Part shown: positions 18,813-57,621 of the stretch, in pieces | How positions within the stretch are numbered: position 1 is the stretch's first letter | Layout: the number at the start of each line of letters is the position of its first letter | NCBI GenBank assembly: GCA_947469885.1 | Contig: CANIQT010000022.1 | Location: 1-64,000, forward strand | Source of the DNA: Bacteroidota bacterium | GTDB lineage: Bacteria > Bacteroidota > Bacteroidia > 2-12-FULL-35-15 | Reading direction: 5' to 3' | Length of the DNA: 64,000 nt | Made by a program: the position numbers and the translations under genes | The notes under the pieces: model-generated | What the model was told of the DNA's origin: nothing | Databases searched by the model: none | What the model saw: only the letters and a program-made list of their open reading frames with translations

Positions 18813-18852
18813 TTCTTTTAATATCTGAAACAATCTGTTAAAATTTGTTACG

Positions 18853-19094
18853 GGTATATTGCCACCAAAAACAATATAGGTGAAACTTGTTTCAGGTATA
18901 TCGCCACCAAAAGCAATATAGGTGAAACTTGTTACGGGTATATTGCCACCAAAAGCAATATAGGTGAAACTTGTTACGGGTATATCGCCACCAAAAGCAA
19001 TATAGGTGAAACTTGTTACGGGTATATTGCAATTGAATGCAATATGGGTGAAACTTGTTACGGGTATATTGCAATTGAATGCAATATAGGTGAA
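18853..19094. repeat. Six 42-bp hairpin repeats
   Basis: GGTATAT recurs at 18853, 18895, 18937, 18979, 19021 and 19063, an exact 42-bp period. Each unit forms a hairpin with stem TATATTGC/GCAATATA or a one-base variant. The loop is CACCAAAA in the first four units and AATTGAAT in the last two, so the stem is kept while the loop differs. Because 42 is divisible by 3, the array stays open in several frames, but I see no gene in it. Confidence 0.85.
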
Positions 19095-19160
19095 ACGAAA
19101 TTTAACAATTGCGAATTCTAAAAAAGCATTACTTTTACAGATATTTAATTTATTGAAACA

Positions 19161-24863: not shown

Positions 24864-24940
24864 GTGGTAATAAATTAATGAAGGAATGGGGAGGGGAGTT
24901 TTATTTTGTTAGAAGGGTTGAGAGGGAAAAGACGAAAAGT

Positions 24941-25127
24941 GAGAAATCCACTCGCGATGATGAGAAATTCACTTGCGATGATGAGAAATCCGCTTGCGAT
25001 GATGAGAAATCCGCTTGCGATGATGAGAAATCCGCTTGCGATGATGAGAAATCCGCTTGCGATGATGAGAAATTGACTTGCGATGATGAGAAATCCACTT
25101 GCGATGATGAGAAATCCATTTGCGATG
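24941..25127. repeat. Nine 21-bp tandem repeats
   Basis: GAGAAAT recurs every 21 bp from 24941 to 25109. The unit reads about GATGATGAGAAATCCGCTTG plus C, with variants TTCACTTGC, TTGACTTGC and TCCATTTGC. The period is exact and divisible by 3, so open frames (for example repeated DDEKSAC) cross it on both strands. These are judged not to be genes. Confidence 0.9.
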
Positions 25128-25128
25128 A

Positions 25129-26831: not shown

Positions 26832-26864
26832 GGGATTTAGGATTTAGGATTTAGGATTAAAAAA
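26832..26864. repeat. GGATTTA heptamers after the stop codon
   Basis: Tandem GGATTTA units begin directly after the TGA stop of the Ala-rich gene. Confidence 0.8.
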
Positions 26865-27170: not shown

Positions 27171-28178
27171 ATGAAAAAAAAAATATTAAATACATTTTTT
27201 ATTGTCATGCTGAACTTATTTCAGCATCTCTCTTTAAATGCTCAAACTAATCTTGTACCCAATTGGAGTTTTGAAGTAGATAGCTTATGTCCTGACAATG
27301 GTGGTCAAATAAGTTATGCTCCTCCTTGGCGTACTGGAGGGGGGACCCCTGACTACTATAATGCTTGTGATGGAATCGGTCTAACTACAGCAGGTGTGCC
27401 TTTAAACTGGGGCGGCTATCAATATGCAAAAACAGGCAATGCTTACGCTGCAATTTTTTGCTATTCTTTAAGTCCTCCTCCTACTGAAATTAAAGAATAT
27501 TTACAGGTAAAATTAACCGATAGTTTAGTAACAAACAGAAAATATTGTGTGAGTTTTTATTTGAATTTAGCTACTACATTGGCTCAGGCATATCATAATG
27601 TAGCTATTACAGAAATGGGAATGTATATATCTAATGATGCCGTATTATCTACCAACCTTTTAACTTTGCCTTTTACTCCTCAAATTATATCACCTTCTGG
27701 TGTTTTTTTAGATGATACCTTAAATTGGACAGAAATTTCTGGGGAATATATAGCACAAGGTGGTGAAAAATATATTACAATTGGTAATTTTAATAATCCT
27801 ACAGATACTTTTAATATGCCAAATAACAATAATAATCCTACCGTTGTATCTTATTATTTTATAGATGATGTAACGTTTAGGGACTGCACAAATGATGGGG
27901 TAAGTGAATTAGGAATTGGGAATGAGGAATTAGGAATAATGCCAAACCCGGCAAGTGAAAGCCTAACTTTAGAAATAAAAGAAGCCAGGATTCAAGAGTC
28001 AAGAATTAAGATTTATAATGTGGTTGGACAACTGATTTATTATACTACAATTACAACTCACCAAAAAATAATAGATATAAGCACTTACCCAAGTGGTGTT
28101 TATTTTGTTGAAGTGAGGTCCTTCGATAAACTCAGGATGACAGATGTTGTGGTAAGAAAGAAGTTTGTGAAGGAATAG
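27171..28178 (+). CDS. Secreted T9SS protein carrying repeat-derived segments
   Basis: The product has 335 residues. The signal peptide is unusual: MKKKILNTFFIVMLNLFQHL includes a MLNLFQHL stretch that I recognise as translated dispersed repeat DNA. The body (NLVPNWSFEVDSLCP ... YYFIDDVTFRDC) resembles exported proteins of Bacteroidota with a jelly-roll, carbohydrate-binding-like domain. The C-terminal T9SS domain (IMPNPASESLTL ... SGVYFVEV) is preceded by a GIGNEELGI tract from heptamer DNA and contains RSFDKLRMT, another known repeat translation. Export by T9SS is likely; function is unknown. Confidence 0.8.
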   Translation: MKKKILNTFFIVMLNLFQHLSLNAQTNLVPNWSFEVDSLCPDNGGQISYAPPWRTGGGTPDYYNACDGIGLTTAGVPLNWGGYQYAKTGNAYAAIFCYSLSPPPTEIKEYLQVKLTDSLVTNRKYCVSFYLNLATTLAQAYHNVAITEMGMYISNDAVLSTNLLTLPFTPQIISPSGVFLDDTLNWTEISGEYIAQGGEKYITIGNFNNPTDTFNMPNNNNNPTVVSYYFIDDVTFRDCTNDGVSELGIGNEELGIMPNPASESLTLEIKEARIQESRIKIYNVVGQLIYYTTITTHQKIIDISTYPSGVYFVEVRSFDKLRMTDVVVRKKFVKE

Positions 28179-38501: not shown

Positions 38502-39035
38502 AGTTTTTGTTTTTTTGGTTAATCGTTGTTTTTGTTTATTTATTTTTTAGTTACTTATTTTTCATTTCAAACTTTCCAATTTTTGTTTTTGCCAATGTTT
38601 GTTTAACTTTACCCTAAGTTCGAAAAGTTTTTGCCAATGTTTGTTCAACTTTACCCTAAGTTTGAAAAAGTTTGCCAATGTTTGTTCAACTTTACCCTAA
38701 GTTTGAAAAAGTTTTGCCAATGTTTGTTCAACTTTACCCTAAGTTTGAAAAAGTTTTGCCAATGTTTGTTCAACTTTTCCATAAGTATGAAAAACGTTTG
38801 CCAATGTTTGTTCAACTTTGCCATAAGTATGAAAAACTTTTACCAAAGTACGTTCTACTTTACCCTTTTTATGAAAAGTTTCTCTAACTGTCTTCCGATA
38901 ATCAACTTTAAAAAAGAACTAAACTCTTTGCGCAACAAAAATAACTGATTATCAAATTCAATTTCAAAATAAAGACACCAAATCAAGTATTTCGCTTAAA
39001 AGCATTGCTAATAAAGGAAAGTAAAATTCAGGACG
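38502..39035. other. Gene-free stretch holding the 42-bp array
   Basis: Besides the repeat array at 38591-38880 I see only AT-rich DNA. Open frames on the plus strand here are products of the repeat. Confidence 0.6.
38591..38880. repeat. Seven 42-bp tandem repeats
   Basis: GCCAATG (ACCAAAG in the last unit) recurs at 38591, 38633, 38674, 38716, 38758, 38800 and 38842, a 42-bp period with one 41-bp step. Each unit has GCCAATGTTTGTTCAACTTT followed by ACCCTAAGTTTGAAAAAGTT. The AACTT/AAGTT arms can form a small hairpin. The period equals that of the unrelated array at 18853. Confidence 0.88.
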
Positions 39036-57411: not shown

Positions 57412-57456
57412 AAATAAATTATTGAATTTAATTGACCGAAAATAAGTAAAATAATT

Positions 57457-57621
57457 GAGTTGGTGGTGATAACACCAACAACGGCTTTTGAGTTGGTGGT
57501 GATAACACCAACAACGGCTTTTGAGTTGGTGGTGATAACATCAACAACGGCTTTTGAGTTGGTGGTGATAACACCAACAACGGCTTTTGAGTTGGTGGTG
57601 ATAACACCAACAACGGCTTAA
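57457..57621. repeat. Five 33-bp hairpin repeats
   Basis: GAGTTGG recurs at 57457, 57490, 57523, 57556 and 57589, an exact 33-bp period. Each unit holds the hairpin GTTGGTG-GTGATAA-CACCAAC (one unit has CATCAAC) and ends AACGGCTTTT. The same stem occurs singly at 39522 and 59591. Confidence 0.9.

Follow-up and report, generated by a model that had tools for sequence, protein, structure and literature searches.

The superfamily of CGTC-tagged REPs is known from Bacteroidetes, is sometimes met within genes and seems to be devoid of a dedicated transposase (Di Nocera et al. 2013, PMC3733652). The RPE-4 and RPE-6 elements of Rickettsia are counted among the CGTC-type REPs (PMC3733652). In the C-terminal sorting domains (CTDs) of T9SS cargo proteins, the C-terminal motif and loop b3-b4 are conserved and needed, and the other loops are variable (PMC11285876). 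In the locus analysed here, one gene for a secreted T9SS cargo protein harbours two REP-like, GTCA-tagged elements that appear to be retained within its targeting signals. One of them is the core of a putative Sec signal peptide, and the other forms the tip of the final hairpin in the CTD.

The gene (27171..28178, plus strand) belongs to a window of 64,000 nucleotides on contig 22 of a 4.07-Mb Bacteroidota assembly (50 contigs, 91% complete). It reads exactly as set out in the preliminary description of this locus. The encoded protein of 335 aa has a signal peptide, a CBM4-like beta-sandwich domain and a type A CTD. Judged by eye, the N-terminus is a putative Sec signal peptide composed of MKKK, a hydrophobic stretch and NAQ (leader sequence MKKKILNTFFIVMLNLFQHLSLNAQ). 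The structural model, with a mean pLDDT of 85, shows a leader helix (residues 3-18), a beta-sandwich that has CBM4/CBM22 and gingipain adhesin domains among its Foldseek matches, and a CTD rich in strands. The latter (27936..28178, plus strand, up to the stop codon) scores above the curated cut-offs of both PF18962 (48.6 bits) and TIGR04183 (43.2 bits). Like other T9SS type A CTDs (Por_Secre_tail), it retains the PNP motif, the beta-sandwich strands and the basic C-terminal motif; unlike them, it has a repeat element as the tip of its last hairpin. The scores and the predicted fold are consistent with the earlier view that the T9SS tail looks functional. At least 150 T9SS CTDs are encoded in this ~4-Mb genome.

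The element in the signal peptide, which we call MLN (GTCATGCTGAACTTATTTCAGCATCT, 27204..27229, plus strand), codes for residues 12-20, VMLNLFQHL, in the signal-peptide core and within the leader helix of the model. As an exact 26-mer, this segment matches a palindromic element with a perfect 8-bp stem (ATGCTGAA/TTCAGCAT), a 5-nt loop (CTTAT) and a GTCA tag, and its predicted fold has an energy of -6.7 kcal/mol (z -4.4). Across the genus, 22 of the 36 genomes hold copies at up to 3 mismatches, 158 in total and up to 39 per genome, whereas the backwards control gave none. The copies vary at one stem pair, which is G..C, C..G or T..A. Fifteen double-change cells were counted versus 6.7 in shuffled data, and none of 500 shuffles gave as high a value, showing that the palindrome is maintained by compensatory change.

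The second element, SFD (GGTCCTTCGATAAACTCAGGATGAC; GTCATCCTGAGTTTATCGAAGGACC on the minus strand, its own orientation), occupies 28117..28141; read on the plus strand, it codes for RSFDKLRMT, residues 316-324 of the protein. In the model this segment forms the tip between the final two CTD strands (309-319 and 324-334). As an exact 25-mer, it matches an element found at 11 places in the same genome (control, 0). No stable fold was predicted for SFD, which has 4 outer pairs followed by mismatches instead of an uninterrupted 8-9-bp stem; we therefore name it a GTCA-tagged imperfect palindrome and not a CGTC REP. Three of its 11 copies lie in T9SS CTDs, in three different frames or orientations (RSFDKLRMT, SHPELVEGQ and LRQAQDD), with a chance probability between 8e-5 and 8e-4 given the 150 or more CTDs. 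One copy is found inside TruB, and most others are intergenic. The preliminary description had considered both segments to be translations of dispersed DNA elements that are seen in many bacterial genomes. This was borne out for SFD within its own genome. The 335-aa gene holds the sole MLN copy of the genome at up to 3 mismatches, and thus MLN is dispersed in the genus and not in this genome. Since MLN is nearly absent from this genome, the gene may already have contained it when it was inherited or acquired, and insertion need not have taken place there.

Repeat elements in CTDs occupy loops b1-b2, b4-b5 and b6-b7, according to our own loop assignment. The CTD tips of L043, a paralogue from the same genome, and of L049 carry a sister subtype of SFD (TACTTCGACAAGCTCAGTA..., YFDKLSNRG). 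At L009 (G000:C8:20620), an SFD copy in a CTD is placed between the near-identical direct repeats TCAACCATCAATA and TCAACCATTAATA, a possible target duplication. The TruB protein (L006, G000:C1:127505-127529) is ~37 residues longer near the N terminus than solved TruB chains, and the corresponding DNA consists of AATCAAG heptamers, an SFD-type element (RHPEIVEG) and CCAACAA heptamers. In putative SpoIIE-like phosphatases, so named from their motif (L076, L280 and L288), the loop PLWIVR/ALWIVR holds in-frame palindromes that differ from gene to gene, and palindromes of both kinds are hosted there.

MLN resembles the CGTC-tagged REPs in most respects. It falls within their 20-40 bp size range, has an 8-bp stem opening with A-T, T-A where 8-9 bp are typical and a 5-nt loop where 4-5 nt are, bears a TGTC/CGTC tag through the TGTC variant at one end, and occurs in many cases as head-to-head pairs, the majority of its copies being intergenic. 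In one orientation each, MLN and SFD both begin with GTCAT(N)CTGA. The base preceding GTC(A) is mixed (T 28, C 11, A 11 and G 11 in 61 copies outside GIY-YIG loci), and GTCA thus fits the tag in this genus better than CGTC. The differences from CGTC-tagged REPs are the imperfect stem of SFD, the service of the elements as signal-peptide and sorting-domain sequences, and the framing of GIY-YIG genes by related palindromes. As in Rickettsia, palindromic repeats lie in frame within functional-looking genes. The preliminary description had drawn this comparison and had read both palindromes as being in frame, which they are; with RPE-4 and RPE-6 among the CGTC-type REPs (PMC3733652), the likeness is closer than first supposed. 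The situation by which the Rickettsia elements are recognized, an in-frame palindrome inside an otherwise conserved gene, is found in the 335-aa gene, in TruB and in T9SS CTDs. In contrast with Rickettsia, the elements are single 25-26-bp units concentrated in the targeting signals of exported proteins, and MLN has a copy number of one in its own genome.

The 335-aa protein is one of a family that has numerous members in each genome, of which 21 per genome were scored among up to 229 candidates. Alignment showed that its nearest relatives diverge exactly at the signal peptide. The leader of L014b (genome G004) harbours CTCACCCCTCTCCTTTGGAGAGGGGCAGGCGGTGAG, a palindrome other than MLN (type CTCTCCTTTGGAGAG) translated as LTPLLWRGAGGEAYAQ; the leader of the neighbouring L014a is plain and free of palindromes, and L043 has neither palindrome in its leader. 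The L014b-type palindrome was found at 36 places in the genome of the window at up to 2 mismatches (control, 0). The differing palindromes of the closest relatives have no flanks in common. Among 75 family members, 13 have a leader hairpin of at least 8 bp. Dinucleotide shuffles gave 1.6, and in the mature parts 7 of 588 windows of the same size hold such a hairpin; for stems with at least 3 GC pairs, the corresponding values are 9 of 75, 0.18 and 2 of 588. The signal peptides of the gene's dozens of paralogues have acquired at least three unrelated palindromes.

Whether the repeat segments are clean insertions relative to orthologues had been posed as a test in the preliminary description. 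Homologues lacking the elements do have other residues at the element sites, which leaves the repeat origin of these residues uncontradicted. No empty-site allele was found for either element, and the flanks and lengths show no clean insertion; replacement of variable segments would be as likely as insertion for both MLN and SFD.

The pattern is not a peculiarity of this protein: other secreted proteins in the genus show it as well, a point that the preliminary description had missed. We searched the genus for an MKK start followed by the MLN core within 33 nt and obtained 14 matches, against none in the backwards search. Eleven are in frame (P = 7e-4), and each of these opens a reading frame of 248 aa or more whose start is shaped like a signal peptide. 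MLN makes up the putative signal-peptide core of these 11 proteins in one shared frame, and most of them are unrelated to the 335-aa protein; from our own reading of the sequences, they would include TPR proteins, a 7TM sensor, a barrel-like protein and a collagen-like protein. A phylum-wide search yielded few matches because most of the sampled families seem devoid of the MLN element. In genome G005, two genes that are otherwise unrelated have in common, at 93% identity, a 69-bp leader cassette that starts at the ATG and extends as far as the presumed cleavage site. This MLN-bearing cassette, common to two unrelated secreted proteins, was noted at the loci L265, L271 and L272, and leaders and mature parts seem to have been shuffled in that genome.

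Two segments of the 335-aa gene had been ascribed to GAATTAG-type heptamer DNA. The segment at 27906..27937 (plus strand) is a real array, (GAATTAG)4.6, called by TRF with period 7 and coding for residues 246-256, ELGIGNEELGI, in a low-confidence linker ahead of the CTD. That at 27987..28016 (plus strand) is a degenerate run, AGGATTC AAGAGTC AAGAATT AAGATTT, coding for RIQESRIKIY in CTD strand 2, for which TRF gave no call. At the position of the array, homologues have linkers of equal length (±1) with other residues, and the array is therefore not a clean insertion. The idea of heptamers as insertions was thus ruled out by the alignment in favour of replacements or in-situ repeats. The repeat class also occurs outside genes, as with (GGATTTA)3.7 at 26833..26858 (plus strand), upstream of the gene, and the heptamers probably represent low-complexity DNA of a separate, independent class. 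Among the short periods of the window, period 7 stands out in both TRF and the lag profile, and about 17 period-7 tandem arrays, unusually many, are distributed over coding and intergenic DNA between 413 and 62880. Longer tandem arrays are present at 24940-25128, 18841-19096, 38587-38881 and 57455-57619, with periods of 21, 42, 42 and 33 bp, respectively. SFD copies tend to adjoin heptamer arrays. Target-site duplications were looked for around the element copies and discounted: the excess of direct repeats is weak (4 versus 1 at 8 bp or more), partly stems from the heptamer arrays and is confounded by those adjoining several copies.

Some MLN copies of sister genomes flank small GIY-YIG genes. 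A strict perfect-hairpin detector overlooked imperfect palindromes near such genes, and we therefore compared arm against arm, defining as framed those loci with inverted arms that start with GTCA and are identical at 14 or more of 20 positions past the tag. By this definition, 36 of 70 small GIY-YIG loci of the genus are framed (all 36 among L109-L137 and L168-L205), compared with 1 of 44 in a shifted control; about half of the sampled genes are unframed. GTCA is the best tag of all 256 tetranucleotides for these arm pairs. In framed genes of sister genomes, the PF01541 catalytic domain scores 71 and 57 bits (cut-off 22.6). The palindrome type tracks the nuclease clade (Mantel r 0.50, 0 of 5000 permutations, with proteins extracted using the profile): proteins starting with MKIGYVYIMSN are paired with MLN-type arms, those with MKTMYVYIL with CTGAGC..GTCGAAG (SFD-type) and those with MNLN.AYVYIL with CCCGTG..CACGGG, among others. 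The relation between MLN copy number and the presence of its nuclease clade is at most suggestive, with P 0.037 after removal of the flanking copies. RAYT/Y1 transposases were rejected as the mobilizing enzymes, inverted GTCA-tagged arms being found at none of 30 Y1_Tnp loci of the same genomes.

This arrangement is reminiscent of the REP/RAYT pairs (REPtrons, REPINs), in which a small enzyme gene is also placed between inverted tagged palindromes and its clade matches the palindrome type. The framed gene here codes for a GIY-YIG nuclease, in contrast with the Y1 (HUH) transposase of those systems, and the GTCA palindromes and GIY-YIG genes possibly form a REPtron-like mobile unit without RAYT. 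In the window's own genome, just two GIY-YIG matches were found, one in a 620-aa frame and one in a 465-aa frame, and the element copies of this genome are therefore probably relics.

Altogether, we assign a probability of about 0.7 to the reading that REP-like palindromes were kept where targeting peptides tolerate them and that GIY-YIG nucleases probably spread these repeats. The phenomenon is real and more general than first described, and the reuse of repeat palindromes in secretion signals is most simply accounted for if random insertion or exchange was succeeded by selection of a tolerated frame. Elements would enter genes almost randomly and survive where one frame is free of stops and the protein is tolerant, the most tolerant places presumably being signal-peptide cores and, in the many T9SS CTDs, loops that are not essential. 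The association with small GIY-YIG nucleases is observed, and we infer that these enzymes spread, or still spread, the elements that frame their genes; the genome of the window, which seems to lack the nuclease, would retain old copies. Insertion might instead be targeted, if the DNA preference of the enzyme makes signal-peptide and CTD coding DNA true hot spots. This would fit with one element class recurring at the same positions, such as the last CTD turn of the 335-aa gene, L043 and L049, with signal-peptide elements always lying a few residues ahead of AQ and with intragenic copies recurring in one SpoIIE-like phosphatase loop. Nevertheless, unrelated palindromes (GTCA-tagged and CTCTCCTTTGGAGAG) are found at the same places, signal peptides use a single hydrophobic frame only and most copies are intergenic, all of which is expected from selection after random insertion, and we hold targeted landing to be improbable.

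Somewhat less doubtful, while still unlikely as the full explanation, is recombination, whereby ready-made signal-peptide or CTD cassettes would be swapped among paralogues and unrelated secreted proteins with the palindrome carried along. The G005 cassette of two genes without other relationship (93% identity), the common mature part of L265 and L271 with distinct leader starts, and the near-identical CTD ends of L043 and L049 all point to such exchanges; yet these leave the first entry of the elements unexplained, and the closest relatives of the 335-aa gene have differing palindromes without common flanks. Recombination is compatible with retention of spread palindromes as a second step. 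We give very little credit to the notion that LNLFQ-type leaders and FDKL turns are merely common peptides. Signal peptides are low in complexity, and decayed leaders such as L243 and L247 can be called only alongside the others, but the exact 25-26-nt identity to multi-copy elements with backwards controls at zero, and the leader hairpin excess over shuffles, argue against chance or convergence. Slighter still is the prospect of an assembly artefact, in which the repeats would mark chimeric joins; the assembly is indeed fragmented (50 contigs, 91% complete), but the frames stay open across every junction and several separately assembled genomes display the same architecture.

The components of this system are of known kinds, and the use of repeats as signal-peptide cores and their pairing with GIY-YIG genes appear new within the searchable literature. 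Our literature search, whose coverage stopped short of subscription journals and most preprints, gave no paper linking GIY-YIG nucleases to REPs. These nucleases are a candidate enzyme for the CGTC-tagged REPs. We consider the odds to be about even that the small GIY-YIG nucleases are the missing enzymes of GTCA/CGTC repeats, forming a second, non-RAYT REPtron, and that the repeats are a standing source of new signal peptides and CTD loops, with mobile palindromes making up the secretion signals of unrelated proteins. If so, there would be a concrete route from non-coding repeat DNA to a protein-targeting signal, taken several times in one genus, and the mover of CGTC-tagged REPs, including those in Rickettsia genes, would become a directly testable question.

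Outside the phylum, several of the plasmid GIY-YIG loci examined had no framing inverted repeats. Others did: a Sphingobium plasmid gene (L312) is framed by GTCACCCCGGGCTTGACCCGGGGTC (19/20), and inverted repeats were also found at plasmid GIY-YIG genes of Methylobacterium (L308) and Sphingomonas (L309). The framing repeats in Alphaproteobacteria include a CGTC-type arm pair.
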